A DNA stretch of 64,000 nt. Source: Edaphobacter paludis (GTDB lineage: Bacteria; Acidobacteriota; Terriglobia; Terriglobales; Acidobacteriaceae). The DNA is taken from contig NZ_CP121194.1 of assembly GCF_039993895.1 (NCBI RefSeq), positions 2,666,001 through 2,730,000 on the forward strand, written 5' to 3'. The notes under the pieces are model-generated. The model ran no database searches. It was not told the DNA's origin and saw only the letters and a list, made by a program, of their open reading frames with translations. Each line of letters starts with the position of its first letter. The stretch's first letter is position 1. Positions 13,885-34,200 of this stretch are shown one piece after another. Position numbers and translations under genes: made by a program.

Positions 13885-13898
13885 AGAACGTCAGTCAT

Positions 13899-13984: not shown

Positions 13985-13997
13985 CAAGGAATCAGCC

Positions 13998-16380: not shown

Positions 16381-16435
16381 GGTTTTACCCGCATCACAAT
16401 CCGTCGTTAAGCATTTTGAAATGAGACAAAACCAT

Positions 16436-17554
16436 ATGAACTTTCCAAAAGTCAGCTTCGTCGTCCCCTGTTACAAGCTAGGCCACCTGATCTCCGAGTG
16501 TCTGTCCTCCATCCTTTCGCAGACCTACACGAACTTTGAAATCCTCGTGATGGATGACCAATCTCCCGATGACACGGCACAAGTGGTCTCCACCTTCTCC
16601 GACAAGCGCATCAAGTACATACGGAACCAGGAGAACCTCGGCAATCTTCGGAACTACAACAAGGGCATCGAACTCTGCCGTAGCGAATATATCTGGCTGA
16701 TCTCCGCGGACGACTATCTGCGGCGTCCTTACATCCTCGAGCGATACATCAAGGTTATGGAAGCCAATCACAAGATCGGCTATGCCTTTTGCCCAGGTGT
16801 CAGCGTCATCGACGGACGGGAAGCGGGTGTCCTCCCATATTCCAAATACGATGAAGCGGATCGAATCATCGATGGTCGACGCTTCTTGAATCGGCTGTTG
16901 AAAAGCAACTTCATCGTCGCGGCGTCCGCACTCGTTCGCCGAGAATGTTATGACAACATTGGGCGATTTCCATTGACTCTCGGAATGGAGTGGAGCGGCG
17001 ACTGGTACCTGTGGTGTGCCTTTGCGCTGACCTATGACGTCGCCTATTTCGCGGAAGCCATGGTCTGCTATCGTGCACACGCTCTCAGTATGACCACAAC
17101 GCTTGCCCAGCAGGAGAATCTACATAGGTGTTCTGGAGGCGATCTGGCGGTGCCGCTGAAGATTCGCAGCCACGCCCGCGAACTAGGCCTCAAGCAAGTG
17201 GAGGACGCCTGCCTTCAGGCCATTGCAAACGAGTACGTCCAGCAGTGTAAGTCGAAGAAATACCAGTCGTCGGCCTGGTCATTGAGCCTCCCGGCATTTG
17301 AAGCCTCCTTGCATGAGAATATCCACTCCGAAAAAGAACGGGCCTATATCCGGGCGCGAGTCTTTGATGGAATAGGGGATAGTCTCTGGGCCGGAGGGGA
17401 ACGTTCGCGAGCTCAAGCCTCGTATCTCGCGAGTGCAAAGATAGAGCCCCCCGCGGTCAAAGCCTATATCAAGTACCTGCTCGTTTCTTTGGGAGTACCA
17501 GGAAATCACGCAAGAACATTTGGACGCTACCTTCGTGGAAGCATCAATGGCTGA
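16436..17554 (+). CDS. Glycosyltransferase family 2
   Basis: 372 residues from the ATG at 16436; 16421 is an alternative start and the open frame runs further up into the deacetylase gene. GT2 signatures: KVSFVVPCYKLGHLI, SILSQTYTNFEILVMDDQSPDDT and the metal site ISADDYL. The C-terminal ~150 residues are helical and may bind the acceptor. The stop overlaps the next start (ATGGCTGA), so the two glycosyltransferases are probably translated together. Confidence 0.83.
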   Translation: MNFPKVSFVVPCYKLGHLISECLSSILSQTYTNFEILVMDDQSPDDTAQVVSTFSDKRIKYIRNQENLGNLRNYNKGIELCRSEYIWLISADDYLRRPYILERYIKVMEANHKIGYAFCPGVSVIDGREAGVLPYSKYDEADRIIDGRRFLNRLLKSNFIVAASALVRRECYDNIGRFPLTLGMEWSGDWYLWCAFALTYDVAYFAEAMVCYRAHALSMTTTLAQQENLHRCSGGDLAVPLKIRSHARELGLKQVEDACLQAIANEYVQQCKSKKYQSSAWSLSLPAFEASLHENIHSEKERAYIRARVFDGIGDSLWAGGERSRAQASYLASAKIEPPAVKAYIKYLLVSLGVPGNHARTFGRYLRGSING

Positions 17555-18644
17555 TCCATTCTGCGCACGCGAGCGAAAGCCTATGAATAGCCCGACGGTA
17601 TCGGTTGTCATGAGTGTCTTCAACGGGGGCAGCTTCTTGTCCCAGGCCGTGGAGAGCATTCTGCATCAGAGCTTCGAAGACTTCGAATTCATCATCGTGG
17701 ACGACGGATCAACCGACGCCTCTGCCTCGACGCTCGATGGATTTCAAAGCCGTGACGCTCGCATCCACGTTGTCCATCAGAAGAACACGGGGTTAGTCCA
17801 CGCACTGAACCGCGGCTGTGCCCTGGCACGCGGCAAATACATTGCGCGGATGGATGCCGATGACATCGCGCTCCCCGACCGTCTCGCATCCCAGGTCGAA
17901 TTCCTCGAAAGCCATCCCACGGTAGTCCTCCTAGGGGGTGCGGTTGACTTTATCGATGCGCGAGGCAATAAGCTCCACACTGCCAGATATCCCGCTGCCG
18001 ATACGGCGATCAAGCGAGCACTCCTGGACAGCAGCGTGTTCTGGCATCCCACCGTTCTCATGTCGAGGAGAGCCTTCGTCTGCCTGGGAGGCTACAGAAA
18101 CGTCCCTGACGCCGAAGATTACGACCTTTGGCTAAGAATGGCGGAGATTGGTGAACTGGCCAATCTGTCACAGGTGCTGCTTCGTTATAGAGTTCATGCT
18201 CAGCAGGTCTCCGTTCTCCGCTGCCGCACCCAGGCCCTCGGCTCACTTGCTGCGAGAGCCTCTGCAGTTGCACGGCGAAGGGGCGACTGCGATCCTCTCC
18301 ACAGGATGTCAGAGATCACGGCATCTCTTCTATCGGCCAACGGTGTAAGCGACAGGAGCCTGCAAACGACGATTGCAAGAAGCTACCTCTCATCCATACG
18401 CAACATGTTCCTTCTGAGAGATCATGCTTCTGCTCTCAACATGCTCGGAGTCTTGCACTCTTCAGGGTTTGAGCACGCCGAACGCTGGGTGATCTCAGAC
18501 TCCCATCTCTGCGCCGCGAAAGTATATTGGTCGCAAGCGAAGTACATCCGATGTCTTTTTAGCTGCGTTGTTGCCGTAATCAAGCGCCCCATCGTTTTGG
18601 GTCGTCCCTTCAAATCCGCCCTACGCGCAATCTTCGCAACATAA
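17547..18644 (+). CDS. Glycosyltransferase family 2
   Basis: 365 residues from ATG 17547, chosen because GGAAG precedes it and it overlaps the previous stop by 8 bases; ATG 17583 is an alternative that fits the family start (SPTVSVVMSVFNGG). GT2 motifs are SILHQSFEDFEFIIVDDGSTD and ARMDADDIALPDRL (DxD). HPTVLMSRRAF and DAEDYDLWLRMAE are typical acceptor-side motifs. The C-terminus adds about 130 helical residues. Member of the EPS glycosyltransferase set. Confidence 0.84.
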   Translation: MADPFCARERKPMNSPTVSVVMSVFNGGSFLSQAVESILHQSFEDFEFIIVDDGSTDASASTLDGFQSRDARIHVVHQKNTGLVHALNRGCALARGKYIARMDADDIALPDRLASQVEFLESHPTVVLLGGAVDFIDARGNKLHTARYPAADTAIKRALLDSSVFWHPTVLMSRRAFVCLGGYRNVPDAEDYDLWLRMAEIGELANLSQVLLRYRVHAQQVSVLRCRTQALGSLAARASAVARRRGDCDPLHRMSEITASLLSANGVSDRSLQTTIARSYLSSIRNMFLLRDHASALNMLGVLHSSGFEHAERWVISDSHLCAAKVYWSQAKYIRCLFSCVVAVIKRPIVLGRPFKSALRAIFAT

Positions 18645-18718
18645 AAGCGTGACTCGCAGCGGCCAATCAGTCTTCACTAGATCCTGTCATGCACACAAGT
18701 ATGAATGGAAGGAAAGCA

Positions 18719-19990
18719 ATGGCCCAGGCAAGAGAACAGTCCGTCTTCCAATCGATGAGTCGAGCCAGAACTCAGCTCGCCCGGCGCTTCCGCCAGATCC
18801 CCCAACTCCTGCGAACCGAAGGACTCACCGCCGTCTCCGACCGCATCCGAAGAGTCGCCGCCCAACGCCTCACGCCCGCCCGTGTGATCTCGCCCGTCCG
18901 CCGCGCCGACATCATGGCCGTCGACCTCTCCCACCCCTTCGAATATTCCATCCCAACGTTTAACCCCGGGCAGCCGCTTACCGCCAACTGGGTCATCACT
19001 CCGCCAGCTCTAGGCTCTGGAGGCCATACCACCCTCTTCCGCATGGTGCGCTATCTGGAAGCACATGGCTATCGCAACCGCATCTACTTCTACGACCCAT
19101 ATGGCGGCGACCACCTCTATTACGAGTCCATCGTCCGCAACTACTATCACTTCCACGGCCCCGTCGCCAGCGTCGACCGGGGTATGGAAGATGCTCACAT
19201 TGTCTTCGCCACAAGCTGGCCGACGGCCTATCCGGTCTTCAACTCACGTTGCGGAGGAAAACGCTTCTACTTCGTCCAGGACTTCGAACCCTTCTTCTAT
19301 CCTGTCGGAAGCACCAGCTCTTTAGCCGAGAACACCTACCGCATGGGATTTCACGGCATCGGCATCGGCAGCTGCTTCGCCGAGAAACTCACCAGCGAAT
19401 TCGGCATGACCATCGACACCTTCAACTATGGCTGCGACATCTCGCAATACCACCGCTCCCCGAATAGTCCACGCTCGGGAATCGTCTTCTATGCCCGCCG
19501 TGACAACGCGCGCCGCGGTCTGGAACTTGGCCTCATGGCACTCGAAGTCTTCGCCAGCCGCAATCCAGAAGTAGAAATTCACATCTATGGCGATACGATC
19601 GGAAAGCAGCCCTTCTCCTTCACCGATCACGGCCGCCTCAGCCCCGCCGAGCTCAACCTCCTCTACAACCGCTGCTACGCCGGGCTCAGCCTCTCCTTCA
19701 CGAACGTCTCCCTGGTCGCACTGGAGATGCTCGCCGCCGGCTGCATTCCCGTCGTCAACGATACCCCGCAGGTTCGCACCGACCTCGATAATCCCTTCGT
19801 CGCCTACGCTCTTCCTTACCCGCAGGCGCTCTCAGCACAGCTCGAAGCTGTTCTCGCCAACCAGGACTTCGAGTTCCTCTCCTCTGCCGCAGCCTCCTCC
19901 GTCCACGCCACAAGCTGGGAGGAAGCTGGGGCCGAGATCGATCGAATCCTGCGCCGGGCCATGCGCATCGATGCCAAATGCATCCGCTAA
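18719..19990 (+). CDS. Glycosyltransferase of the WsaF-like GT4 type
   Basis: 423 residues. The start at 18719 has AGGA five bases upstream; two ATG codons at 18689 and 18701 lack this. After a basic helical N-terminus the protein has NWVITPPALGSGGHTTLFRMVRYL, FYFVQDFEPFFY, and a C-terminal donor site with FYARRDNARRGLELG and SLSFTNVSLVALEMLAAGCIPVV. This matches GT4 enzymes related to WsaF, a rhamnosyltransferase of S-layer glycan synthesis. It is the last gene of the EPS locus; 155 bp without visible structure separate it from the ABC permeases. Confidence 0.8.
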   Translation: MAQAREQSVFQSMSRARTQLARRFRQIPQLLRTEGLTAVSDRIRRVAAQRLTPARVISPVRRADIMAVDLSHPFEYSIPTFNPGQPLTANWVITPPALGSGGHTTLFRMVRYLEAHGYRNRIYFYDPYGGDHLYYESIVRNYYHFHGPVASVDRGMEDAHIVFATSWPTAYPVFNSRCGGKRFYFVQDFEPFFYPVGSTSSLAENTYRMGFHGIGIGSCFAEKLTSEFGMTIDTFNYGCDISQYHRSPNSPRSGIVFYARRDNARRGLELGLMALEVFASRNPEVEIHIYGDTIGKQPFSFTDHGRLSPAELNLLYNRCYAGLSLSFTNVSLVALEMLAAGCIPVVNDTPQVRTDLDNPFVAYALPYPQALSAQLEAVLANQDFEFLSSAAASSVHATSWEEAGAEIDRILRRAMRIDAKCIR

Positions 19991-20145
19991 CCCGTTTGAC
20001 GCCGAAAGAGATGGCCTTGCATCGGTGGATCTAAAGGGATTCTCATCCTCACGCATAGAGCTCACGGAGGGGGACTTAGGAACTTTCCAGCCTGAAGCGC
20101 GTATATAGAATCAGTCCGCCTCTTTTCAACGGATAATGATTGCCT

Positions 20146-21399
20146 ATGCCTATACGCGAGATATTCAAGCAGACTATATCTGCACTTTGGGAGAGCAAGC
20201 TTCGCAGCTTTCTCACCATGTTCGGAATCGTTTGGGGCATTACATCGGTGATTCTGCTGGTTGGGTTAGGGATCGGCTTCAACGTTGACCAGAAAGAACA
20301 CCTGCGAAGCATCGGCACAGATATTGCAATTATCTTCGGCGGCAAAACAGGAATGCAGGCTGGCGGTTATGCAGCCGGTCGTGACATCCGACTCACCGTA
20401 GACGATGCCATTGCCATTCGGGATCAGGCACCGTTGGTCAAAACCGTTAGCCCTGAGATTCGGCGGACCGCATCTGAAGTCAGCCAGTGGAATGCTGCCT
20501 CGCGTCCCGTTCGCGGCGTCTGGCCGGAGTATCAACGCTTTCGTTCTCTCACTGTCGATCAGGGACGGCTGATGACCGATGAAGACGAAGCGAATGGGCG
20601 ACGCGTCATTCTGCTGGGAGCCGACGCAAACCGCCAGCTTTTTCCAGGCAAAGCTGTCATCGGACAGAAGATGATGGTGGCTGGGTACGAGTACACAGTC
20701 ATCGGTGTGCTCGCCAAGAAGAAACAGAACGGCAGCTACGGAAGTGGACCGGATAACACCCAACTGTTCGCACCGTACTCTGCCATGGCACGCGACTTTC
20801 CGCCGACGGACCCTGGCATCGAGCGCGGATATGTCAATAACATCGTCATTGAGCCTGTCTCGCCCGATCTGCATGAGAAGGCTCTCGACGAGGTGAAGCG
20901 AATTATCGCTATACGCCATCACTACGACCCTGAAGATAAGGAAGCTCTATGGATCTGGGACACGCTCGAGGGGTCCAAGTTTACTGAGCGCATCTTCTCG
21001 GTAATGACCTTCTTCTTCGGTGCAGTTGCCTTGTTGACGCTGGCGCTAGGCGGCATTGGCGTGATGAACATCATGCTGGTCGCTGTCACCGAACGAACGC
21101 GAGAGATCGGCGTTCGCAAGGCGCTAGGTGCTACTGCGGTAGACATTCGGCGGCAGTTTCTAGCCGAGTCGGCGATCATAACCATCGTCAGCGGCCTTAC
21201 CGGCCTGACGGTTGGCGTCGGAGTGTGCCTGCTGATGCGGCTGGTACCACTTCCTGATTTTGTGCCTCATCCGGTGATCTCTCCCATCGCGATCGGGGCT
21301 TCCCTTGCGACTCTTACGGTCATTACGCTCTTCGCGGGCACGTATCCCGCGTTGCGTGCGGCCAATCTCAGCCCGATGGAATGCCTGCGAACGGAGTAG
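20146..21399 (+). CDS. MacB-type ABC transporter permease (1 of 2)
   Basis: 417 residues. One membrane helix at the N-terminus (MFGIVWGITSVILLVGLGIG), a ~220-residue periplasmic MacB-PCD domain, then three C-terminal helices with the FtsX-core signature GGIGVMNIMLVAVTERTREIGVRKALGA. No nucleotide-binding domain is fused, unlike E. coli MacB. The matching ATPase is at 28912 in this window. Such permeases use ATP-driven periplasmic motion to push substrates out with an adaptor and outer-membrane channel. ATG 20146 is preferred over TTG 20140. Confidence 0.87.
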   Translation: MPIREIFKQTISALWESKLRSFLTMFGIVWGITSVILLVGLGIGFNVDQKEHLRSIGTDIAIIFGGKTGMQAGGYAAGRDIRLTVDDAIAIRDQAPLVKTVSPEIRRTASEVSQWNAASRPVRGVWPEYQRFRSLTVDQGRLMTDEDEANGRRVILLGADANRQLFPGKAVIGQKMMVAGYEYTVIGVLAKKKQNGSYGSGPDNTQLFAPYSAMARDFPPTDPGIERGYVNNIVIEPVSPDLHEKALDEVKRIIAIRHHYDPEDKEALWIWDTLEGSKFTERIFSVMTFFFGAVALLTLALGGIGVMNIMLVAVTERTREIGVRKALGATAVDIRRQFLAESAIITIVSGLTGLTVGVGVCLLMRLVPLPDFVPHPVISPIAIGASLATLTVITLFAGTYPALRAANLSPMECLRTE

Positions 21400-21401
21400 C
21401 G

Positions 21402-22658
21402 ATGAACATCGGTGAGATTATCCGTCAAAGTATCGACTCCCTTCTGCGCAATCGCCTGCGCTCTGGATTGACCATGCTTGGTATCGTGTGGGGGCTGGTA
21501 ACAGTTGTCCTTCTGCTGAGCTATGGAAGGAGCCTTGGACAGGAGGTGATGAACGGGTTTCTTGGACTGGGCGATAACGTCATTATGGTCTGGGGCGGCC
21601 AGACGAGCATGCAGGCCGGTGGCGAACGAGCAGGCCAGAAGGTCAAGTTCCGCGATGGAGATACCGAGGCCGTTCGCGATACAGTCCCGTTTCTCAGGGC
21701 GGTGAGCTCCGAGACGGACGATGCGTTCAGCTTCAAGTACGGAGCCAAGGTCGTAAATATTCAGAGCAAAGCCATTGAATATCCCTACGGAGGGATGCGC
21801 CGGCTCAAGGTTGAGGAAGGCCGGTACTTCGAGCCGGCGGACTTCAGCGACCATCGGCAGGTGGTTATCTTCGGTGCTCATGCAGCACAGAAGCTCTTCA
21901 ACGGATTTCCTCCCGTCGGTGAATCGGTAAATATTGAGGGCCACGTCTTTCAGGTCATCGGCGTCTTGCAGAACAAGATTCAGGACTCTTCTAACAATGG
22001 TCCCGATAACGAAAATGCCTTCATTCCCTTCGGCATGATGCGGCTGCTGAGAAATCAGCGGGACCCGGACAGCATCGTGTTCCAGCCCGTCTCAGGCGAC
22101 ATGCATCTCAAGGCGATTCAGGCTGTTCGGGCGGTGTTGGCACAGCGCCATCACTTTGATCCCAAAGACGACAAGGCGATCGGCGATTGGGACACCGTGG
22201 CCGACTCGGCGGAGATCATGCAGTTCAGCACGGCGCTCGAACTTCTGCTCGGCATCATTGGAGCGATGACGCTGGGCGTAGGCGGCGTGGGCGTGATGAA
22301 TATCATGCTCGTCTCTGTTACCGAGCGCACTCGGGAGATTGGCCTGCTCAAGGCGCTTGGCGCGCGACGGCGTGACATTCTCTCTCAATTTTTGTTGGAG
22401 AGCCTTACGCTGACGTTTATTGCCGGGGCAGCCGGGATGATGATTGCGGTTGCTGTGGCTTACATGATTCCAGCCATGCCGCTCTATTCCGATATCTATA
22501 AGACGGCGAACCACGAAGGCGACATCATTCTGCGCGCTTCGCCGGAGGTGATGCTGATCTCGTTCGGCATTCTGGCCGTCGTCGGCATCGTGTCCGGGCT
22601 GCTGCCCGCCATTCGCGCAGCGCATATGGATCCGGTCGTAGCGCTACGGCATGAGTAG
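21402..22658 (+). CDS. MacB-type ABC transporter permease (2 of 2)
   Basis: 418 residues with the same layout as its neighbour: N-terminal helix (LTMLGIVWGLVTVVLLLSYG), periplasmic domain, and three C-terminal helices with GGVGVMNIMLVSVTERTREIGLLKALGA. GGAG overlapping the previous stop serves as ribosome site for ATG 21402, so the pair is translated as a unit. The two are similar but clearly diverged, suggesting a heterodimeric permease. The stop lies only 3 bases from the end of the convergent gene on the other strand. Confidence 0.87.
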   Translation: MNIGEIIRQSIDSLLRNRLRSGLTMLGIVWGLVTVVLLLSYGRSLGQEVMNGFLGLGDNVIMVWGGQTSMQAGGERAGQKVKFRDGDTEAVRDTVPFLRAVSSETDDAFSFKYGAKVVNIQSKAIEYPYGGMRRLKVEEGRYFEPADFSDHRQVVIFGAHAAQKLFNGFPPVGESVNIEGHVFQVIGVLQNKIQDSSNNGPDNENAFIPFGMMRLLRNQRDPDSIVFQPVSGDMHLKAIQAVRAVLAQRHHFDPKDDKAIGDWDTVADSAEIMQFSTALELLLGIIGAMTLGVGGVGVMNIMLVSVTERTREIGLLKALGARRRDILSQFLLESLTLTFIAGAAGMMIAVAVAYMIPAMPLYSDIYKTANHEGDIILRASPEVMLISFGILAVVGIVSGLLPAIRAAHMDPVVALRHE

Positions 22659-22661
22659 CTC

Positions 22662-22925
22662 TCAGTTGGCAGGACGATAGCGAATCTGCCCGTCATCCAG
22701 AAAATACTCTGCGGAACATCTTTCCGAGCCGCAGATCATGGACGCATTTCCCATGCACTGCTGCCGGGTGATGAGTCCGAGAGAGCCACAGGTGGGACAG
22801 GCGAGGACGGCGCAGTAAGGGTTCTCCGCCTTGCCCAGTTCGCCAGTTTGTTCCAGCATGAATAACGTACCCGGCTGCATCTGCTCGGGAATCCAAACAT
22901 CCAGTAGGTTCAGCTCCGCTGTCAT
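22662..22925 (-). CDS. Small zinc-ribbon-like protein, unknown function
   Basis: 87 residues from ATG 22925, supported by AGAGAGG 6 bases upstream. It has a CPTCGS pair near residue 45 and later QQCMGNASMICGSERCSAEYF, so four or more cysteines could bind a metal. The end reads DDGQIRYRPAN. I do not recognise the family. It stands between the second permease and the barrel-protein gene. An inverted repeat (GCACCA/TGGTGC) lies about 27 bases upstream of the start. Confidence 0.6.
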   Translation of the reverse strand: MTAELNLLDVWIPEQMQPGTLFMLEQTGELGKAENPYCAVLACPTCGSLGLITRQQCMGNASMICGSERCSAEYFLDDGQIRYRPAN

Positions 22926-22952
22926 AGCTTGCCTCTCTACGGTTGTTATTCT

Positions 22953-22968
22953 GCACCACTTCTGGTGC
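22953..22968 (-). promoter_or_regulatory. Inverted repeat upstream of the zinc-ribbon gene
   Basis: GCACCA-cttc-TGGTGC, flanked by TTCT on one side and AGAA on the other (22949-22974), giving a near-symmetric 26-bp site. Its inner edge is 27 bases before the start codon at 22925. It could be an operator or a 5'-leader hairpin. Confidence 0.35.
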
Positions 22969-22974
22969 ACAGAA

Positions 22975-23390
22975 TATCTGATTCCGTGCGCATGTCAACA
23001 TGCATTTGTGAACTGGATTACGTCGTGAGGAAATCGCTCCTAGAAGTATCCCCCCCCCACCTGATTCGATAAAGCATCTCGATTCAACGGTTTAGCGCTG
23101 AAGTCTAAAGGCAAAGTCTTCATTCCAGAGGATTTACAGGCAAAGTATTCTTTATAAAGGAGTTAACCTGAGCAATCTTTGCCGAGCCTATCTTGTACTC
23201 TCTACTTCTTCTATTTTACGGGAATGGTGAAAACTGTTTTGCAATCTATATCTTTATTGTTTTGTTTGATTTAGATAGATTTGGGGCTTGACAGGTAATT
23301 TGCTGGGTTTTTTTGACGATTGAGTCGGAGTCGCGGGAAGAGGAACGAGGGAAACCTTTGACTCCTTTATGCCACATGTAGGAGGACATA
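22975..23390. other. Non-coding stretch between divergent/convergent units
   Basis: AT-rich DNA with no coding frame that looks real. It holds a run of nine C (23050-23058) and two similar short words (AGGCAAAGT at about 23109 and 23140). No promoter could be assigned with confidence. Confidence 0.4.
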
Positions 23391-23411
23391 CCCAAGGGCT
23401 GAAGCCTTGGG
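23391..23411 (-). terminator. Strong hairpin downstream of the barrel-protein gene
   Basis: CCCAAGG and CCTTGGG form a 7-bp perfect stem around a 7-nt loop. It lies about 95 bases past the stop of the minus-strand gene ending at 23505. There is no T-run, so it may be a repeat-type palindrome rather than a true terminator. Confidence 0.4.
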
Positions 23412-23470
23412 GTACCCAGCAGCAAAATATGATTCGTAAGCCACTCACCAGAGGTAACCCCAACAGCAGG

Positions 23471-23491
23471 TTCCTCCGCTTCGCTGCGGAA
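23471..23491. repeat. Short palindromic element (TTCCTCCGCTTCGCTGCGGAA)
   Basis: TCCGC and GCGGA (23475-23479 and 23486-23490) enclose a 6-nt loop, and the outer TTCC/GGAA letters extend the symmetry. It lies just past the stop of the gene ending at 23505. Very similar short elements are, to my knowledge, common between genes in Terriglobia; only one clear copy is seen here. Confidence 0.4.
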
Positions 23492-23504
23492 TGACGAACA
23501 AAAA

Positions 23505-25271
23505 CTAAAAGGTGAAGGCGAGGCCGGCCTGGAGAGCGCGCGGAGATTGGGCGAGGAAGAGGGTCTTGCCGTCGGCAGAGAGGAAGGGTCGGTAGCCCTG
23601 GGAGAGCAGGTTGGTCACATCTACCGTTGCTTCGAGCCCCGGAGGCAGGAGGTTGCCAAACTTGATCGCCTGGCGCAGATAGCAACTGAGATAGGCTTGA
23701 TCGCTGAACGCTCCGTAGGGGTTGACTGCTGTCACCATGCGCATCGGTTGCCAGCGGTAGGCCGCGCGAACTCTGGTCCCGCTCCGAAGTATCCTTCCCT
23801 TCACCGCGAGCGTAGCCGTCTGGGACATCAGCGGCTTGAGTTCGGTGGGCATGTCCTGCAACGTGAGCACCTCATCGTCGTCCTTCGCCGTGAGTGCAGC
23901 GCCTGTGCTGTATTCCAGGGCTACCCACATGTTCGTGGTGATCGGCTCGGACAACATGAGATTCATTCCCTGAGTCTTGTATCCCGAGTTGAGAAGACGG
24001 AAGCTGCCGGTGGTCTGGTCTGCCAAAACGCCCCCAGCAGGCGACTCGTCAGCCTGGGCGATATCGGACGCGCTGAGAGAGCCGCCGCCTTCGACCATCA
24101 CCTGATTGAGCGAATCGAGATAGTACGCAAGCTGAATGAGACCGGGGCCAAGCTTACGACCGATGGCAAATTCCTGATGCAGGCCGCTTTCGGTACGCAT
24201 ACGGTTCTGCGAGGTTACCGCAACCGGCGTCTCCTGCTGCACGGTGTTGAGTCCCGCGTAAGATTGCAGATCGCGGGAGGTCGCCATGCGATAGCCGATC
24301 GTCCAGTCCTCCGAGGGGTGAGTGGTCACCTTGAGGAAGGGACGCGAGGCTAGGGCGTAGCCTGCGGTGTGGACGACATAGAGGATGCCCCCTACCTCGA
24401 CGTCTGCGGCATCGCCAATCTGCATCTTCTCCGCGCTGGCTAGCTGGAAGGTCTGCAGGCCGGACGCGTTCTCCGCGCCGAGCATCTCCGGGTGGGACTG
24501 ATAGCTTGCGACCAAACGGCTGGAGCCGGCGAAACCTCGTCGCCGCTCGAAGCCTGAAGCGATGTTCATGGAAGGTGAACCCATCCACGGTCCAAGCCCC
24601 GTCCCAATGTCAGCGCGGACGACCATGCCTGAGCCATCGTCGAGCACGCGGTCCAGGGTAACGATGTTGTGAACACCACCGTTGGCAAAGCCGCCGTCGC
24701 CACTGCTGACAGCTGCTCGAATGCGAGAAGACGGGGTGGAGGATTCGGTCGAACTGGAGGAGATCGACATCACATTGCCGTCGTCGGCAGCCATTCGAAG
24801 GATGGGGCGGTTGACGGCGGAACGCAGCGTCCACTTCCAGTCGTCGCCGGGCTCGTCTGCCTTGCGACGCTCGGCGGGCAGCCATGTCGTCGCATCGAAG
24901 ATGGTATTCAGGGTGAGATTGACGATCGCCTGGGCACCGGGACGAAGGTGAAGATCGCCACGCGTGGTCGGCACAAAGAGGACGGCGGTAGCTCGAACCT
25001 GATATTTGCCAGGAACCAAACGGGTGATGAGGTAGCGGCCGTGAAGATCGGTAAATGCAGTGCCCACAAGAGCGGAGTTACCCGCCAACACCTGAACCAG
25101 AGCACCCATCTGGGCGACGCCGTCGGCATCGCGAACGACGCCGGAGACCGTAGCACCAGGACCCACAGCTAGGCACACCGATGCGGTGGATAGCATCAGA
25201 GCCAGAAGCGCGATCTTCACCTGGAATCGTTGCACAGCGTTTGCTTTCTGCGCGTCGACGGCAAACTCCAT
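23505..25271 (-). CDS. Outer-membrane barrel protein with carboxypeptidase-regulatory-like domain
   Basis: 588 residues from ATG 25271 (a GTG at 25325 is possible). A signal-like helix (KIALLALMLSTASVCLA) precedes a carboxypeptidase regulatory-like fold: ATVSGVVRDADGVAQMGALVQVL, TDLHGRYLITRLVPGKYQVRA. The rest is beta-rich with alternating aromatic residues and ends in LAFTF, a terminal Phe typical of outer-membrane barrels handled by BamA. It resembles Acidobacterial TonB-receptor-like proteins but is short, and I see no TonB box or clear plug. It sits between the two parts of a MacAB-type system; a link as outer-membrane partner is only a possibility. Confidence 0.65.
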   Translation of the reverse strand: MEFAVDAQKANAVQRFQVKIALLALMLSTASVCLAVGPGATVSGVVRDADGVAQMGALVQVLAGNSALVGTAFTDLHGRYLITRLVPGKYQVRATAVLFVPTTRGDLHLRPGAQAIVNLTLNTIFDATTWLPAERRKADEPGDDWKWTLRSAVNRPILRMAADDGNVMSISSSSTESSTPSSRIRAAVSSGDGGFANGGVHNIVTLDRVLDDGSGMVVRADIGTGLGPWMGSPSMNIASGFERRRGFAGSSRLVASYQSHPEMLGAENASGLQTFQLASAEKMQIGDAADVEVGGILYVVHTAGYALASRPFLKVTTHPSEDWTIGYRMATSRDLQSYAGLNTVQQETPVAVTSQNRMRTESGLHQEFAIGRKLGPGLIQLAYYLDSLNQVMVEGGGSLSASDIAQADESPAGGVLADQTTGSFRLLNSGYKTQGMNLMLSEPITTNMWVALEYSTGAALTAKDDDEVLTLQDMPTELKPLMSQTATLAVKGRILRSGTRVRAAYRWQPMRMVTAVNPYGAFSDQAYLSCYLRQAIKFGNLLPPGLEATVDVTNLLSQGYRPFLSADGKTLFLAQSPRALQAGLAFTF

Positions 25272-25381
25272 AACGTAATTGCACCCGGTACAAGGAGGGT
25301 GCTGTTTTACAGGCTGCCCTGCCACCGCTTATCGCCCTGTTGCATCCACGTAAGCATGTGGCTCTTTCCGTGCAGACTGCG

Positions 25382-27115
25382 CTATTCCACTACAAACGGT
25401 GCAGATTCTGCGATCTGCTGCTTGGTGATTCCATCATCGACCTTGATGGTCACCTTATACTTGCCGGGCGCGAGGCTGGCAAGCGGCATACTCTTTTCCA
25501 GCGTCACCTGATCAGCGTTCGGGTTGGTCTTGGCGGTAAGTTCCTGCGTCTGCAGAACCGTCTGGTTCGTGCCCGTATTCACAATCTGGTAGTCGATGGT
25601 GGCATCGTTTTTCTTGCTCTTCTCGTCGATACCGAGGTTATAGACCTGCATCCAGAAATTCAAGTTCTGCGCCCGGTGGAATGTGACCGGAACGGCCAAC
25701 TCAGTCGGCACGCGGGGGCGAATGCGAGTGTCGCCGATGACAAAGTTGCCAGCGCCGATATCCCGGGAAGGCACATGCTCCATCTCGTCGGCCAGAATCA
25801 GCGAAGATGAGGCAAGGTGATCGTCGTCATACTTGGGCACGTTGATGCTGCGCTTCCATCGACCGATGTGGTCTGGGCTGTTGACGTCCTTGATTGCGAT
25901 GTCGACTTTATACAAGCCGGGCCGCAATGGCAGCGCCTTCCAATAGACGGAGACGTTGTTCTGGGTACGGGCTAGCAGCTCGCTTGGAACCTGAACATTG
26001 ACGGTGTCCTCAAAGGTCTGGATTGGCCGGTCATTGAGGTTGGAGACACGTCCGAGGATATTGACCGTGCCAGTGGCGACGCCGTCCTTGTTGCTGAAGG
26101 TGATGTCGCCGTTGCGAATTTGCAGGGTCAACGGAACAAGCACGGTATCGTTGGTGATCTTGACGTAGTCGGTACGAACGCTGAAGAGGAAGGGTGGGCC
26201 GGTGAGAATCTTGGAAGTCGCCATGAACGACTCAAGATCCTTGAACTTGATAACAGGGGGGGCCATCAGCTTGGCGTATTGATCGAGCCGGTCGAACTGC
26301 TTGCTCTGGTTCTGCGACGACATGGGGCCGGTGCCAAGCTGCTCGAGGCCTCCACCTGAGAAGCGGTCTGCCTTCTTGGCCTGCCCCTCTTGTTCATACA
26401 TGGTGAGGCCGGCTCCGGGAACGTGCTTGAGCGCGTCCTTCTCGGAACGGTCGAGGGTCATGTGGTAGGCGCCGCACATGCAGGTATCCACAAACTCGAT
26501 GTCGATGTTGTCGCCGATACCGGCCAGATAGCGATAGTGCCAGACTTCAAACGGGAAGGTCGAGGTCTCGCCGCCGCCCTCATCCATGGGCCGCTCGTAG
26601 TTGCCGCCGCTGGGATGGGAGTCAATGCTGTCGGGCTTGCCGTACGCGATATAGATGTGGCCGCGGTCTGTCTTCCAACCGGGCATGCCCGCTGCGAAGT
26701 GTTCATTCGCATAGGCAATGCGGGCATAGTGCTCTTCTTTGTACTCATTCTCCGGGGAATCCGGATTCGGGTTGCGGCGGAGCCAGAAGTTCTCGATGAA
26801 GGAGTCGCGCTCCTCATCATTGCTCAGGTTTTTGAAGGCCCTCATCTCCTGGTCGGTGATGATCCATCGGACGTCTTCGTCAAGCCACTTCTTATAGACG
26901 CCGTGCAGTTCGCCGCGCAGTTCCTTCTGCTGGGCGCGCTTTTCCTTATCGGTCAACTGACGCTTGAGCGGGTCGGGCTTTTCCACATTGGAAGGCTGGG
27001 CCTTTCCGTCGATATCGGGAAGAGCGCTATTCGTGTTTTGAGCCGGCAAAGCACTTGCCCCCATCGTCAAGAACAGAAAAGCTGTGATCGAAACGAGGCG
27101 GCGTGACGTATTCAT
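25382..27115 (-). CDS. GWxTD domain-containing exported protein
   Basis: 577 residues. Signal peptide RRLVSITAFLFLTMGASALPAQ, then a charged segment (KEKRAQQKELRGEL) and the core GWxTD domain with SFIENFWLRRNPNPDSPENEY and GWKTDRGHIYIAYGKPDSI. The C-terminal half is beta-rich and immunoglobulin-like. The family is found mainly in Acidobacteria and Bacteroidetes; its function is not established. ATG 27115 is chosen; a TTG at 27142 is possible. It is divergently placed from the adaptor gene at 27408, sharing a 292-bp intergenic region. Confidence 0.82.
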   Translation of the reverse strand: MNTSRRLVSITAFLFLTMGASALPAQNTNSALPDIDGKAQPSNVEKPDPLKRQLTDKEKRAQQKELRGELHGVYKKWLDEDVRWIITDQEMRAFKNLSNDEERDSFIENFWLRRNPNPDSPENEYKEEHYARIAYANEHFAAGMPGWKTDRGHIYIAYGKPDSIDSHPSGGNYERPMDEGGGETSTFPFEVWHYRYLAGIGDNIDIEFVDTCMCGAYHMTLDRSEKDALKHVPGAGLTMYEQEGQAKKADRFSGGGLEQLGTGPMSSQNQSKQFDRLDQYAKLMAPPVIKFKDLESFMATSKILTGPPFLFSVRTDYVKITNDTVLVPLTLQIRNGDITFSNKDGVATGTVNILGRVSNLNDRPIQTFEDTVNVQVPSELLARTQNNVSVYWKALPLRPGLYKVDIAIKDVNSPDHIGRWKRSINVPKYDDDHLASSSLILADEMEHVPSRDIGAGNFVIGDTRIRPRVPTELAVPVTFHRAQNLNFWMQVYNLGIDEKSKKNDATIDYQIVNTGTNQTVLQTQELTAKTNPNADQVTLEKSMPLASLAPGKYKVTIKVDDGITKQQIAESAPFVVE

Positions 27116-27407
27116 AAATAGGGCAGTGCTCCTGTTAACCAATCTGTATTGTAGAGCGGTTACTTAGCCGATACAAGAGGGTGGAATCTGACTTCTACCC
27201 TGCTATTATCCTCGGTGATCGTCGGAGGACGTTTACTATTCATTGCCGCGGAGATAGCTGCTATTCTTCTCCCTATCCTTATTAAGCCGCGTTGGCTGTG
27301 TAAGAAGTCCAATGGAACTGTATATGCATCCTTTTCGTATGATTCTCTGACAGGCCACTCCCAATGCGCGCAGACAGGGTGATTCCGGTCCGCGAAAGAA
27401 AGCAGCA

Positions 27408-28805
27408 ATGAGCGCGAAAAAGATTGTTTTGATCGTCGTCGGCGTCCTGGTACTGGCAGGCATCGTCGTAGGGACCATTCTCCATGGACAGGCCAATGTG
27501 ACGAAGGTGGCGACGGGCAAGGCGGTACGTCAGGACCTCGTCTCGATTGTCAATGGTACCGGGCAGATCAAGCCGAAGACGTATGTCAATATCGGCGCAA
27601 CGTCCTTTGGGCGCATCACCCACTTGAATGTGAAGGAAGGCGACCACGTCAAGAAGGGTGCCGTTCTGGCCACAATCGAGAACGTTCAGCCGGAGGCGAC
27701 CGTCGCGGCGCAGCAGGCGACCATCGCGTCGAACCGTACCGATGTCAACAGCTACCTTGCCGCAGAAAAGACCGCCACCGCGAATATTGCGGAGTCCGAG
27801 GCTGATCTTGAGCAGAAGGGGCTGGACTACAAACGCGCCCAGGCGCTTTATCAGGACAAGCTGATTGCCAAGCAGGACTACGACAGCAAAAAGGCTGCCT
27901 ATGATATGGCCGTCGCGACCCTGGCCCAGCGGAAGGCGGCGTATGCGCAGTCTTTGGCACAGACAGAGTCGCAACGCGCGCATGTGACTCAGGCGGTCGC
28001 CAGCCAGCGCTCTAATTATGACGCTCTGGACAAGACGATCAGCCGCGCTCCATTCGACGGCCTCGTGACCAACGTGCCGGTGCGCGAGGGAGAGACAGTC
28101 GTCGTGGGTATTCAGAATGCCGAAGGATCGACCATGATGACTTTGGCCGACATGTCGGTCATTACGGCGGAAGTCAAAGTCGACGAGACGGACATCGTCA
28201 ATGTTGCGATGGGGCAGCCAGTCGATGTCACGGTCGACGCGCTGCCGGGGCGGATCTTCAAGGGGCACGTGACTCAGGTCGGCGACCAGGCCCTGCTGCG
28301 CACCACCGGTATCGCCACCAGCCAAAGCACAACCGGGACGGAAGAGGCTAAGGACTTCAAGGTCGTGGTCACGCTCGACCAGCCTTCGGATGATCTGCGA
28401 CCGGGTCTTTCAGCTACGGCGAAGATAACGACGGCGAACAAGCCGAATGCGCTGACGATTCCAATTCAGGCTCTGGTGGAGCGTAATACCGCCGCAGAGA
28501 AGGCGCTGGCGGCCAATGCGGGCAAGCCTCCCGCGAAGGGCGCTGTTGCGGCTGCCACTCCCACGGATACCAAGCTTGTGCAGGGCGTCTATGTGTTGCA
28601 GCAGGAGCACAAGAAGCTGCGCGCCGTCTTCGTCCCTGTAAAGACGGGGATCACCGGAACGACCGATATCGAGGTGCTCGACGGCCTGAAGGCGGGAGAC
28701 GAGATTGTGACCGGCCGATATAAGGTCTTGCGGACGCTCAAGAGCGGTACTGTCGTCAAACGGGACAACACGCCTGAGACCGTGACACCAACGGACCAGT
28801 CGTAA
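27408..28805 (+). CDS. HlyD/MacA-type periplasmic adaptor (membrane fusion protein)
   Basis: 465 residues. N-terminal membrane anchor (KIVLIVVGVLVLAGIVVGTIL), lipoyl-like half (GRITHLNVKEGDHVKKGAVLATI), a long alanine- and glutamine-rich coiled coil (about residues 105-205) and the second lipoyl half (ISRAPFDGLVTNVPVREGETV), followed by beta-barrel and membrane-proximal domains. Adaptors of this type join an inner-membrane ABC permease to an outer-membrane channel. The ATPase follows after 106 bases and the likely permeases are at 20146 and 21402. No TolC-type channel is in the window. Confidence 0.86.
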   Translation: MSAKKIVLIVVGVLVLAGIVVGTILHGQANVTKVATGKAVRQDLVSIVNGTGQIKPKTYVNIGATSFGRITHLNVKEGDHVKKGAVLATIENVQPEATVAAQQATIASNRTDVNSYLAAEKTATANIAESEADLEQKGLDYKRAQALYQDKLIAKQDYDSKKAAYDMAVATLAQRKAAYAQSLAQTESQRAHVTQAVASQRSNYDALDKTISRAPFDGLVTNVPVREGETVVVGIQNAEGSTMMTLADMSVITAEVKVDETDIVNVAMGQPVDVTVDALPGRIFKGHVTQVGDQALLRTTGIATSQSTTGTEEAKDFKVVVTLDQPSDDLRPGLSATAKITTANKPNALTIPIQALVERNTAAEKALAANAGKPPAKGAVAAATPTDTKLVQGVYVLQQEHKKLRAVFVPVKTGITGTTDIEVLDGLKAGDEIVTGRYKVLRTLKSGTVVKRDNTPETVTPTDQS

Positions 28806-28911
28806 CCGATCGTTGACGTATATGGGCTGACGCCGGAATTCCACTGCGCAAAAGGAACCGCCGCGTCAGCGTAAACGTACTATCCTGAACATGCAGCAAC
28901 CGGAGAACCGG

Positions 28912-29670
28912 ATGGCCATCGAAACCGCAGTTGATCCAATGCTCAGCAATGCCTCCGGACCTCGCGCCGGCGACGTGATCGTCACGGACAATCTCTGGAA
29001 GACCTATGAGATGGGCGACCAGCAGGTGAATGCCCTGCGCGGTGTGAACCTGCGCATCCGGCACAATGAGTACGTCGCCATCATGGGCCCGTCAGGGTCG
29101 GGTAAATCTACGCTGATGAACCTGATCGGCTGTCTCGATTCGCCATCGCAGGGCAAATATTGGCTCAACGGCCACGATGTCTCCGAGCTCAATGACGACG
29201 AACTCGCCCGCATCCGCAATAAGGAGATCGGCTTCGTCTTCCAGACGTTCAACCTGCTGGCTCGCGCCACCTCGCTGCACAATGTCGAGCTGCCGCTCAT
29301 CTACAACGGCACTCCGGCGGCCGCACGCATTGAACGCGCCAAGTCGGTACTGGAATCGGTCGGCCTCGCCGAACGCATGATGCACAAGCCGAACGAGCTC
29401 TCCGGCGGCCAGCGGCAGCGTGTCGCCATCGCCCGTGCGTTGGTCAACAAACCCTCCATCATCCTCGCCGACGAGCCGACAGGAAACCTCGACTCCAAGA
29501 CGGGAGACGAGATCATGGCGCTCTTCGACGATCTCCACGCCCAGGGAAATACCATTGTTCTTGTCACCCACGAGCCGGACATCGCTGAGTTCGCCCATCG
29601 GGTAGTCACGATTCGCGACGGCGTCATCGCCAGCGACCATATCTCCTCACGTATCAGCAATAAAGGGTAG
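28912..29670 (+). CDS. ABC transporter ATPase (MacB/LolD family)
   Basis: 252 residues. Complete ATPase motifs: Walker [11 protein letters not shown]-loop in [10 protein letters not shown], signature [15 protein letters not shown], Walker [13 protein letters not shown] and switch His VTHE. The family powers MacB-, FtsX- and LolCDE-type permeases. GGAG lies 6 bases before ATG 28912, so this is preferred to ATG 28891. It likely drives the two permeases encoded 6-8 kb upstream, since each lacks its own ATPase and an adaptor gene precedes it. Confidence 0.88.
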
Positions 29671-29673
29671 CTA

Positions 29674-29692
29674 GTCCGGCAATATGCCGGAC
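29674..29692 (+). terminator. Hairpin after the ABC ATPase gene
   Basis: GTCCGGC-AATAT-GCCGGAC, a perfect 7-bp stem starting 4 bases after the ATPase stop. No T-run follows, so it may be a processing or attenuating hairpin; it partly separates the ATPase from the next gene. Confidence 0.45.
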
Positions 29693-29743
29693 GATTGCCC
29701 CCACATTGCATCCATTACGTCTGCCTTCGCAGTCTAAGATGGA

Positions 29744-32518
29744 ATGATGGCAAAGTTTCGGCCCCTTAGCATCAGTGCAGCTTTTGCAGCGCTTCTTCTT
29801 GTCTGCCCCATGCTCTTCGGAGAGGCGGCACGTTTCGACCTGACCGGCCCTAAACTCGAGGTCCATGTCACTCGGGATGGCAAGACGCTGCCGATTGCGT
29901 CGGTCCCAAACCTGCAGGCGGGCGATAAGATCTGGCTTCATCCCGACCTGCCGACCACGCAGTCCGTCCACTACCTGCTGGTGGTCTGCTTCCTTCGCGG
30001 CACCACCAACCCACCGCCCGAAGACTGGTTCATCAAGATCCAGACGTGGAACCAGAAGGTCCGCGAAGAGGGCGTGAACGTCTACGTTCCGGACGAGGCG
30101 CAGCAGGTTGTGCTCTTCTTGGCCCCGGAGACAGGCGGAGACTTCAGCACCCTTCGCTCTGCAGTGCGCGGCCGGCCCGGCATCTTTGTGCGCGCGTCGC
30201 AGGATCTTGCCGAGGCTGGATTCGAGCAGGCACGTATTGAAAAGTATCTTGCCGATATGCGTCTGGTCCCTCCCTCCGATCCCAAGGCGCTGCTCGAACA
30301 CTCGAACCTCATCGCCCGCACTCTGAACCTAAAGCCTAATGAAGACTGCTTCAACCGCCCGGTCGACCAGCAGTACACCTGCCTGACCCAAAGCGGGAAC
30401 CAGACGCTACTTAACGATGGTCATGGCGAGACGGTCGTCTCCAGCTTGACGAATGGCGATGCTTCCCAGTTAATCAGTGCGGCCAGCTACACCTCCCTGG
30501 GCGGAGGCGGTTTGTACAGCGCCTACGTGGGGGCGGTGGTTGACCTTGTCCACCTGATGGGTAATCTCCACACCGCGCAATACCAGTACATTCCCGCGAT
30601 CGCATTTCCCGAGGGTGAGGACCTCAACCTCCGGCTCAATACGCCACCTTCGTTCCATAATCCAAAGTCGGTGATCGTCATCGGTCTGCCTGCAATCCAA
30701 CCCTCCGTCCTCCCCCCGCTGCGCCCCGCGGACCCGAAGCACGTCACCTGCCTGCTGCAACCGTCGGTCGCCCTTCCAGTCGAAGGCGCTCCTCTCGTCT
30801 TCTCTACCTCGTTTGCACACGACCTCGTCCTGCACATCAATGGTTCAGGGCCCGAGAAGGACATTCCCCTTGTGCCGGACGCGTATCGCGGCGGCCTCAC
30901 CCTTTCTCCGGCAACCAGCGAACGGAGAGTTCTTCCTACTGCGACGACGGATGCAGCACAACCTCAAGCCGCGCCCCAAGTCCCAGTGAAAACGACAGCC
31001 AAAGCCGACGCCTCTGGCAAGGTGACGGGGACCATTACCGGTTTCTGGGGATTCGATCCGTTCACTGGCCCGACCATGCAGTTGCAGAGCGTTCCGGGCA
31101 AGGACTGGAAGCTGGCAGTCGACGATGTGCTGATCGCAGGGCGGGAGAATAATCTCTCGCTCTCGTCCACCGGAACAGCCTGCGTCCAATCGATCACGCT
31201 CGACACGACGGCAGGAAAGCAGGAAAAAACTGACTGGAAAGAGGCCGACAAGCCGGACCTGATCAACGTCAAGGTCTCCCTGAAATCCGTCGACCCTGGT
31301 GCACTGCATCTGACAATTCGTCAATATGGAGAGGCCAAACCGGATACGGTCGCTGCTGAGACTTTTTCCGAGCCCGCGACCCTCGCTTCGCTGAAGTTCT
31401 ATGCGGGCGATACTTCTGCGGTGCTGAACGGCACCAATCTCAATCAGGTCAAGCAGCTCGAACTGAAAGACCTGACGTTTACTCCGTCCCCATTGCCGGC
31501 TGCGTCCAATACGGACAGCTTCTCCGAGCCGGGCTCCTCGGGCACGACTTCACTGCGGCTCGCGCTTCCGGCCAATGCGGGCGCTCCCAAGTTGAAGACG
31601 GGCGAAAAGCTCACGGCGCACGTCACGCTGAAAGATGGCCGCACCCTTACTCTGCCGGTTCAAGTGGAAGCGCCGCGGCCCTCTGTCACACTCATCAACA
31701 AACGCATCACGCAGACCGCTGACGAGCCCATTCACCTGGCGGATCCTGACGACTTGCCTGTGAACGATCAGCTTACTTTTTCACTCAAGTCTGAGGCATC
31801 CTTCCCGCGCACGGGCCAGATTGAGATCGCGAATGCCGACAACTCGCTGCACACTACACTCGACGTCACATCCGGTACGCTCATTCTGCAGAATCACCAC
31901 ACTCTGGTTGGCACGCTGAATCCGCTCAAGGCGTTTGGGACCTCTGCATTCGGGCCACTCCGTCTGCGCGCCGTCGATCCCGATGGCACTGCGGGAGACT
32001 GGATCCCGCTAATTACGCTGGTTCGTCTGCCTACGCTGAACGACGTCCATTGCCCCTGGGAGGCATCGCAGCCCTGCACCGTAACCGGCTCGGGCCTGTA
32101 TCTCGTTGATTCCGTAGCCACCGACGCCGCCTTCACGAATCCTACCGACGTACCTGAAGGCTTCATCGGCAACACGCTGTCACTGTCGCGTCCGGCCAAA
32201 GCAGGCTTCTATCTCAAGCTCCGCGACGACCCGGCGGCGGCCAATGTGGTTACGATACCGGTATCAATTCAACGGCCGCCGCAAAGTCAGAGAGCGACCC
32301 CGAAGGCCGTCCCAGCTGCAGCAAAACCCGAACCTGCCACTGCGACCTCAGCGCCGGATGCAACTCCAGCAGAGGTTCCTCCCGCAACGGGTGCGACGCC
32401 TGCTGCGCCTCCTGCACCTATGAATGGCGGACAGTCTTCTCAATGTCCCCAAGGAACCTGCCCGGTGCCCGCACCACCGGCAAGCGCAGCTCCAACCGCA
32501 CCTGTGGCTAAACCGTAA
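29744..32518 (+). CDS. Large exported protein of unknown function
   Basis: 924 residues with a signal peptide (ISAAFAALLLVCPMLFGEAA). I do not recognise a catalytic domain. The first ~300 residues contain DLVHLMGNLHTAQYQYIPAIAFP; the central part is beta-rich and repetitive in character (DGRTLTLPVQVE, SVTLINKRITQ, IEIADADNS-like words), suggestive of Ig-like or filamentous-haemagglutinin-like folds. The last ~70 residues are very rich in Pro, Ala and Thr and end with a short Cys pair (SSQCPQGTCPV). It follows the ABC ATPase by 74 bases in the same direction and could be co-transcribed. Two adjacent ATG codons (29744, 29747) are possible starts. Confidence 0.65.
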   Translation: MMAKFRPLSISAAFAALLLVCPMLFGEAARFDLTGPKLEVHVTRDGKTLPIASVPNLQAGDKIWLHPDLPTTQSVHYLLVVCFLRGTTNPPPEDWFIKIQTWNQKVREEGVNVYVPDEAQQVVLFLAPETGGDFSTLRSAVRGRPGIFVRASQDLAEAGFEQARIEKYLADMRLVPPSDPKALLEHSNLIARTLNLKPNEDCFNRPVDQQYTCLTQSGNQTLLNDGHGETVVSSLTNGDASQLISAASYTSLGGGGLYSAYVGAVVDLVHLMGNLHTAQYQYIPAIAFPEGEDLNLRLNTPPSFHNPKSVIVIGLPAIQPSVLPPLRPADPKHVTCLLQPSVALPVEGAPLVFSTSFAHDLVLHINGSGPEKDIPLVPDAYRGGLTLSPATSERRVLPTATTDAAQPQAAPQVPVKTTAKADASGKVTGTITGFWGFDPFTGPTMQLQSVPGKDWKLAVDDVLIAGRENNLSLSSTGTACVQSITLDTTAGKQEKTDWKEADKPDLINVKVSLKSVDPGALHLTIRQYGEAKPDTVAAETFSEPATLASLKFYAGDTSAVLNGTNLNQVKQLELKDLTFTPSPLPAASNTDSFSEPGSSGTTSLRLALPANAGAPKLKTGEKLTAHVTLKDGRTLTLPVQVEAPRPSVTLINKRITQTADEPIHLADPDDLPVNDQLTFSLKSEASFPRTGQIEIANADNSLHTTLDVTSGTLILQNHHTLVGTLNPLKAFGTSAFGPLRLRAVDPDGTAGDWIPLITLVRLPTLNDVHCPWEASQPCTVTGSGLYLVDSVATDAAFTNPTDVPEGFIGNTLSLSRPAKAGFYLKLRDDPAAANVVTIPVSIQRPPQSQRATPKAVPAAAKPEPATATSAPDATPAEVPPATGATPAAPPAPMNGGQSSQCPQGTCPVPAPPASAAPTAPVAKP

Positions 32519-32547
32519 CTTCGAAGGATGAGTCGAGGCGAGTTGAG

Positions 32548-32586
32548 ACCAGCGAAACGTAACCGCAGCGGCTACGTTTTGCTGGT
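32548..32586. terminator. Bidirectional hairpin between convergent genes, containing a stop codon
   Basis: ACCAGCGAAACGTAACCG and CGGCTACGTTTTGCTGGT form an 18-bp stem with two mismatches (G-T type on one strand) and a 3-nt loop. It lies between the 924-residue protein (+, ends 32518) and the permease (-, ends 32572). The permease stop codon and its last few codons are inside the right arm. T-runs on both sides are weak. Confidence 0.55.
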
Positions 32587-34182: not shown

Positions 34183-34200
34183 CTTGGGTCAACTCTCCTT

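Follow-up and report, generated by a model that had tools for sequence, protein, structure and literature searches.

We analyzed a 64,000-nucleotide stretch of the Edaphobacter paludis genome (NCBI RefSeq assembly GCF_039993895.1, contig NZ_CP121194.1, positions 2,666,001 to 2,730,000; hereafter ‘the window’), in which six neighboring genes encode two permeases, an adaptor and an ATPase resembling parts of a MacAB exporter, together with a beta-barrel protein and a GWxTD-domain protein (Table 1). The source genome (G000) is a single contig of 4.04 Mb, and the closest named loci belong to the Acidobacteriaceae (which we take to be subdivision 1 Acidobacteria), Edaphobacter and Granulicella ranking first. 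The two permeases, P1 and P2 (417 and 425 amino acids, aa), are 38% identical and contain MacB_PCD and FtsX domains alone; neither has an ABC_tran domain. They are the sole MacB_PCD matches within the window, and the sole ABC_tran match is a stand-alone ATPase that begins 6.2 kb past the end of P2, behind the adaptor gene. Between the two halves, on the opposite strand, lie the genes for the barrel protein, which ends in phenylalanine, and for the GWxTD protein, a clear member of TIGR04514 (cut-off, 28 bits). An earlier note on this DNA had described the same layout, and each element of it was confirmed: the diverged pair without an ATPase, the lone ATPase about 6 kb away and the two opposite-strand genes. 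It had further supposed that the region may encode one envelope-spanning machine. This stood insofar as the adaptor and ATPase genes are linked to those of the GWxTD and barrel proteins, and failed for P1-P2, which are separated from the other genes by a breakpoint inside the window.

Table 1. Features of the locus (positions in the window).
Feature	Position	Strand	Evidence
P1, MacB-type permease without ATPase domain	20146..21399	+	MacB_PCD 128.8 bits, FtsX 71.9 bits
P2, second MacB-type permease	21381..22658	+	MacB_PCD 109.9 bits, FtsX 78.4 bits
Breakpoint: P1-P2 side = G098 contig C3, barrel side = G098 contig C2	22979..23504	.	blastn
Barrel protein: signal peptide, CarboxypepD_reg and ~18-strand beta barrel, no plug, C-terminal Phe	23505..25235	-	PF13620, AF2 model
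Secreted GWxTD-domain protein, Ig-like sandwich domains at the C-terminus	25382..27115	-	TIGR04514 125.7 bits, AF2 model
Divergent intergenic region, GWxTD/adaptor	27116..27407	.	sequence
MacA-type periplasmic adaptor, hairpin-tip motif from residue 143	27408..28805	+	TIGR01730 142.8 bits
Stand-alone MacB/LolD-type ATPase	28891..29670	+	ABC_tran 118.8 bits

The GWxTD gene is present in 143 of 150 family genomes, and we compared its surroundings in two sets of loci: 40 stretches of 13.6-20 kb from 37 genomes, picked for long contigs, and 80 named loci, which partly come from the same genomes. In the first set, the barrel gene stands beside the GWxTD gene in 37 of the 40 stretches, and the three exceptions (L043, L051 and L056) are second GWxTD copies, each from a genome with a full block as well. 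The adaptor is found in 36 stretches, two of which (L053 and L054) have it about 8 kb away. The ATPase is found in 35, and that of G045 lies just outside the stretch. Among the named loci, the barrel gene is next to the GWxTD gene in 70 of the 72 with 2 kb of room, and a divergent adaptor and a divergent ATPase occur in 62 and 63, respectively, of the 64 with 3.5 kb of room. Any FtsX permease occurs in 5/80 named loci, at scattered positions. The open reading frames (ORFs) of GWxTD and adaptor are commonly 100-450 bp apart in relatives. An order of barrel, GWxTD, adaptor and ATPase kept in this way is far beyond chance. The block is retained at barrel identities as low as 27%, while the genes outside its ends turn over: a 924-aa gene that follows the ATPase in the window recurs in 5/40 stretches, and orthologs of P1-P2 in none. 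The conserved unit of the Acidobacteriaceae is a barrel and a GWxTD gene divergent from an adaptor and an ATPase gene, with no permease. Orthologs of the ATPase at 72-97% identity are present in all 29 other genomes of the 30 family genomes searched. In the wider phylum, ATPase orthologs (E ≤ 1e-90) occur in 159 and GWxTD proteins (E ≤ 1e-20) in 158 of 247 genomes, and, in regions sampled beyond the family and again picked for long contigs, the block itself was absent from all 20 around an ATPase gene and all 20 around a GWxTD gene.

The permease pair follows a different pattern. Orthologs of P1 (at least 56% identity) occur in nine of the 30 family genomes, including that of E. paludis, with P2 nearby every time, and P1-like and P2-like proteins form separate, well-supported clades in a tree of permeases. 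None of the 40 stretches has P1-P2 orthologs beside the block. The same is true of the same-genus loci compared, three from this set and nine more, all of which have the block. In the eight other P1-bearing genomes, the pair is either on a contig other than that of the block or removed from it by 160 kb or more; the distance is 1.5 Mb in G128 and 0.9 Mb in G064, and in G098, the nearest relative compared, pair and block are on different contigs. In blastn comparisons, window positions 20120-22978 align to the middle of contig C3 of G098 and positions 23505-35755 to the middle of its contig C2, where other genes lie upstream of the barrel gene. The left flank (8001-20119) matched neither of the G098 stretches compared by tblastx. 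No direct repeat linking both edges of the moved stretch was found in 19980-23520, and mobile-element genes were not searched for. Because of this breakpoint and because no same-genus locus has P1-P2 beside the block, the adjacency looks like a young rearrangement and not a fixed part of the locus. The earlier note had treated P1-P2 as one half of the locus and had reasoned that halves lying far apart in related genomes would speak against this; they do lie far apart, and the idea that P1-P2 are a fixed permease of the locus was rejected.

A P1/P2-like pair lies within 12 kb of a GWxTD gene in three of the 30 genomes, against 0.41 expected (p = 0.017, corrected for the choice of distance; a weak result, since the distances were picked after the data had been seen). 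Pairs of other subfamilies are found 8 kb from a GWxTD gene in G045 and 12 kb in G034, and one of the 40 stretches (L053) has a pair of 38-40% identity 4 kb upstream. None of 19 P1/P2-like regions contains an ATPase of the block type; in two of them (L092 and L093) another ATP-binding cassette (ABC) protein, scoring 44-45 bits, lies some kilobases off. About 1 kb separates P1 from P2 in six of the nine P1-bearing genomes: in L078 and L079 the spacer is a PfkB-like sugar kinase gene, and in L081-L084 it is a different stretch of about 1 kb. In the latter four regions, an adaptor-family gene stands just before P1.

We also surveyed the ATPases and permeases of the E. paludis genome. It encodes 15 FtsX domains in 14 proteins, which make up 10 units. 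Half of these units include a fused or neighboring ATPase; the other five, near 109069, 1668532, 2686146 (P1-P2), 3260272 and 3605750, have none. Apart from the block ATPase, there are five further ATPases of its type at E ≤ 1e-45. Among these and one beside the permease at 1427580, the ATPases without an adjacent permease are that of the window and one at C1:3239273. The latter, a second stand-alone LolD-type ATPase (L216:9273-9974), lies about 20 kb from an orphan FtsX permease (L217:9272-10372), which stands beside an 880-aa ORF. Because of this second ATPase, elimination within the genome was rejected as proof of the ATPase-permease pairing.

A candidate partner for the ATPase comes from another acidobacterial family, f20, in which all five regions have an adaptor and an ortholog of the block ATPase (68-72% identity) that is directly followed by MacB-type permeases, two or four in number. 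In the tree, the permeases of this operon group (support 99/97) with Pa-Pb, an ATPase-less pair of the E. paludis genome at C1:109069-111580, about 2.6 Mb from the block, apart from the P1 and P2 clades. The tree holds 70 permeases: from an initial 74, five ORFs of more than 600 aa (resembling acidobacterial orphan permeases, ADOPs; L041, L043, L055 and L090) were dropped and the L217 permease was added; the fused MacB was represented by its permease part only, and long branches were flagged. Of the 30 family genomes, 28 encode Pb at no less than 53% identity. The Pa-Pb pair was present in all of 20 regions fetched, none of which has an ATPase of the block type; other ABC matches, of 41-43 bits, occur in L225 and L227. 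A glycosyltransferase gene of the HpnI type accompanies the pair in 19/20 regions and follows Pb on the same strand within 450 bp in 14/20. The E. paludis copy, the only one scored, reaches 336.8 bits against the cut-off of 310. Given this gene behind the pair, we propose that the cargo of Pa-Pb may be a glycosylated lipid. HpnI is named for the synthesis of bacteriohopanetetrol glucosamine, but one report describes subdivision 1 and 3 Acidobacteria as lacking hpnK (PMC5462960).

Both halves of the putative exporter look active, judging from their motifs, because the coupling-helix motif of the permeases and the catalytic motifs of the ATPases are intact in nearly all of them. For the coupling helix, R[TI][RK]EIG is found in 63 of 64 P1/P2/Pa/Pb-type rows of the tree and in 66/70 overall; the rows without it are one P1-like protein (L002_8518) and three permeases of the E. 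paludis genome that have their own ATPases. In 121 ATPase orthologs, Walker A is present in all, Walker B in 120 and LSGGQ in 110.

The adaptor, which passes the cut-off of the RND_mfp model (TIGR01730; 94.9 bits), keeps the tip motif RxxxLxxxxxx(A/S). In 105 family adaptors, the R is present in 105 and the L in 103, and the third position is A in 62, S in 40 and P in three. In 13 adaptors from outside the family, the counts are 12 for R, 13 for L and 11 for S. The RLS motif has been described as the TolC-binding site in MacA, in which a change of S to A retains some activity (PMC3391258). The E. paludis genome has 29 OEP domain matches. Since the adaptor keeps this TolC-docking tip, the barrel protein is unlikely to be its duct, and a TolC-type protein is the more likely outer-membrane exit.

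The barrel protein is of an unfamiliar type, as the earlier note had suspected: none of 37 members matches a Pfam family of outer-membrane barrels or plugs, including the TonB plug and TonB barrel (E 0.05), and all 37 have the CarboxypepD_reg domain (PF13620). The C-terminal Phe is kept in all 73 related ORFs that score above 450 bits in the named loci. An AlphaFold2 (AF2) model (predicted local distance difference test, pLDDT, 77; predicted template-modeling score, 0.65) comprises a signal helix, an immunoglobulin (Ig)-like CarboxypepD_reg domain, a conserved but unmodeled linker (residues 111-168) and about 18 strands. VIA ranked OprD/OccK porins, Tom40 and AlgE first (Z 14-17; OccK7, Z 16.6 over residues 168-576), and the top Foldseek matches were the TonB-dependent receptors FecA and PfeA at 1e-7, with a template-modeling (TM) score of only about 0.3. 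We also observed a conserved motif around DDWxWTLRSxxNRPLLR at barrel residues 131-147, in the linker, which is modeled as disordered. Its core, W.WT[LM]R, is shared by 65/73 barrels and absent from all other ORFs of the scanned sets, and the motif may be a partner-binding site.

For the GWxTD protein, the AF2 model (mean pLDDT 65.7) is reliable mainly in the Ig-like C-terminal half: residues 300-577 mostly exceed 80, and residues 126-236 fall below 50. The top Foldseek rows were generic Ig-like proteins (query TM 0.11-0.16), a profile search for a solved GWxTD relative found none (best E 0.074), and neither the GWxTD nor the barrel protein matched a defence family. A limited literature search found no role or partner of GWxTD proteins. 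Downstream of the GWxTD motif, a Cys-x-Cys (residues 212-214) is present in 79/79 family ORFs versus 0/26 outside the family, by a single pattern. Some other acidobacterial families have 17 or 18 or more GWxTD genes per genome (G156, G170, G191 and G291), versus one to three here. The GWxTD and barrel proteins would form a two-protein outer-envelope unit that is genetically linked to the adaptor and ATPase.

Some neighborhoods outside the block deserve mention. In two regions of family f23, the ATPase has a weak GWxTD-like ORF at a distance of 6 kb (L114, 157 bits) or 8 kb (L113, 85 bits); in L114 (16639-19507) a barrel-like ORF, likewise weak (48 bits), comes after it, and this arrangement is perhaps an older form of the block neighborhood. 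In L135, also outside the family, an adaptor-family ORF is 6 kb from a GWxTD gene. The 924-aa ORF that follows the ATPase in the window (29744-32515) is present in all 12 other same-genus loci, with a 2.6-kb gap in L247, and also follows the ATPase in G064 and G140; it has no Pfam or NCBIfam match. To the left of P1 (18689-19990), a glycosyltransferase gene with WsaF domains stands beside further glycosyltransferase-like ORFs. Rfam gave no match in window positions 15000-35000.

Our preferred reading, to which we give about an even chance (roughly 0.5), is that of a split MacAB-like exporter whose adaptor and ATPase serve permease pairs encoded elsewhere. The adaptor and ATPase would be its energizing half, in which an ATPase dimer would drive a heteromeric permease by MacB-style mechanotransmission, as reviewed in PMC5985334. 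The main permease would be Pa-Pb, and P1-P2 a second, accessory pair of some species that probably uses the same ATPase and recently moved next to the block. The adaptor would hand the cargo to a TolC-type duct, and GWxTD and barrel would be an outer-envelope unit of their own serving the same pathway. This proposal starts from what was observed, namely the gene order and its conservation, the missing ATPases, the tree and the tip motif, and goes beyond it in the ATPase pairing, the cargo and the roles of the GWxTD and barrel proteins.

Several points weigh against this reading. That the block ATPase would pair with Pa-Pb and P1-P2 is deduced from genome arrangement, and elimination does not make this assignment unique, because of the second stand-alone ATPase and the orphan FtsX permease near it. 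The first member of the pair joins its f20 counterpart with support of only 86/75, and Pb falls below 53% identity in G050 (45%) and G011 (39%), both of which have the ATPase. Outside the family, eight of the 20 ATPase regions have adaptor and ATPase without a permease, and seven have the ATPase without a detected adaptor or permease; 15 of 20 thus lack a permease, and either the joined or the split state may be ancestral. GWxTD-barrel and adaptor-ATPase are also separable, being on different contigs in G039 and separated by about 8 kb in both G045 and G101. Finally, the 30 family genomes were selected for good assembly among GWxTD-bearing genomes and are hence a non-random sample.

A wider version, which we hold tentatively as a possibility, is that the block adaptor and ATPase, beside the GWxTD-barrel unit, power a changing set of scattered ATPase-less MacB-type pairs, such as Pa-Pb, P1-P2, others and perhaps some ADOPs. 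Each of the 30 genomes has an ADOP, a P1-like pair or both, which is compatible with sharing of the ATPase, though not strongly. ADOPs as its sole partner were rejected, since six of the 30 genomes (G000 and five more) have none at E ≤ 1e-100. In at least 10 of the 30, a different ATPase, about 50% identical to that of the block, directly adjoins an ADOP (e.g., in G034, G049 and G032); this rival energy source argues against including ADOPs. It is also conceivable, although we consider it unlikely, that a shared divergent promoter or slow decay of gene order holds the block together and that adaptor-ATPase and GWxTD-barrel have unrelated jobs. The lack of the block in all 40 regions taken from other families would fit, as would the broken blocks (L050, L053 and L054), in which GWxTD remains with its barrel. 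However, the four genes stay together family-wide, down to 27% barrel identity, while the flanks turn over, and the weak GWxTD-like ORFs near the ATPase in L114 (6 kb) and L113 (8 kb) point in the same direction.

Two further explanations seem less probable still. The ATPase might be FtsE-like and work with a small or unrecognized membrane partner, the adaptor being a relic, as the seven outside regions with neither detected adaptor nor permease could suggest. We regard this as rather improbable: the f20 operon joins the same ATPase and an adaptor to two or four MacB-type permeases, the adaptor tip is well conserved, and among the close solved relatives are MacB and 5xu1, the latter with a permease chain that P1 matches too. 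Most doubtful, and largely refuted, is a single dedicated envelope-spanning exporter of all six genes, with P1-P2 as its permease and the barrel as its outer-membrane channel. The genes are adjacent in the window, and the proximity of P1/P2-like pairs to GWxTD genes in three genomes would be in its favor. Yet P1 orthologs are in 9/30 genomes compared with 30/30 for the ATPase, the pair is remote from the block in the other eight, a breakpoint lies between them, and the adaptor keeps its TolC tip motif.

The split exporter that we favor resembles known systems in part. Like MacAB-TolC (E. coli MacB, PRK10535, and MacA), it has permeases with a MacB periplasmic core and an FtsX domain and an adaptor with an RLS-type tip motif (PMC3391258); MacB is the best-scoring NCBIfam model for P1, P2 and the ATPase, and MacB structures were matched. 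Unlike it, the ATPase is a separate gene and not fused to the permease N-terminus, there are two different permeases, the halves are dispersed, and the scores of P1, P2 and the ATPase (202.3, 165.3 and 269.2 bits) stay below the MacB equivalog cut-off of 966. A separate LolD-type ATPase with a heterodimeric FtsX-type permease pair recalls LolCDE (family layout in PMC5985334), whereas LolCE scores are 34.1 and 41.2 against 362.45, the ATPase reaches 232.6 bits against the LolD cut-off of 307.75, and here the permeases have a MacB periplasmic domain and an adaptor is present. ADOPs (TIGR03434) are likewise MacB-type permeases mostly without an ATPase gene; they carry a duplicated permease in a single chain, whereas P1 and P2 are single-permease proteins (125.2 and 126.1 bits against 622.3), and our literature search found nothing on ADOP family permeases. 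The barrel differs from TonB-dependent receptors in having no plug or TonB-barrel Pfam match in any of 37 members, and the GWxTD protein, a clear member of its family (TIGR04514, PF20094), differs from other members in its fixed block and its Cys-x-Cys. To our knowledge, no ATPase shared between transporters is known in the MacB family. Elsewhere, MceG is shared by Mce1 and Mce4 (PMC9947336), whose permease proteins reportedly lose stability when MceG is missing, and MsmK by several transporters (PMC4519317). MceG is similar in that one ATPase is apparently common to several transporter units, and dissimilar in that Mce systems are lipid importers of another ABC type and that the dependence is experimental there and inferred here.

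Acidobacteria have many MacB-type permeases without ATPases, and we know of no established power source for them. The block provides a mirror-image candidate, a stand-alone ATPase with an adaptor, in 30/30 family genomes, and GWxTD proteins gain a barrel protein as fixed partner and are linked genetically to an exporter. If the adaptor and ATPase do power a changing set of pairs, then they would be to the MacB family what MceG and MsmK are to theirs, and the energy source of many acidobacterial orphan permeases.

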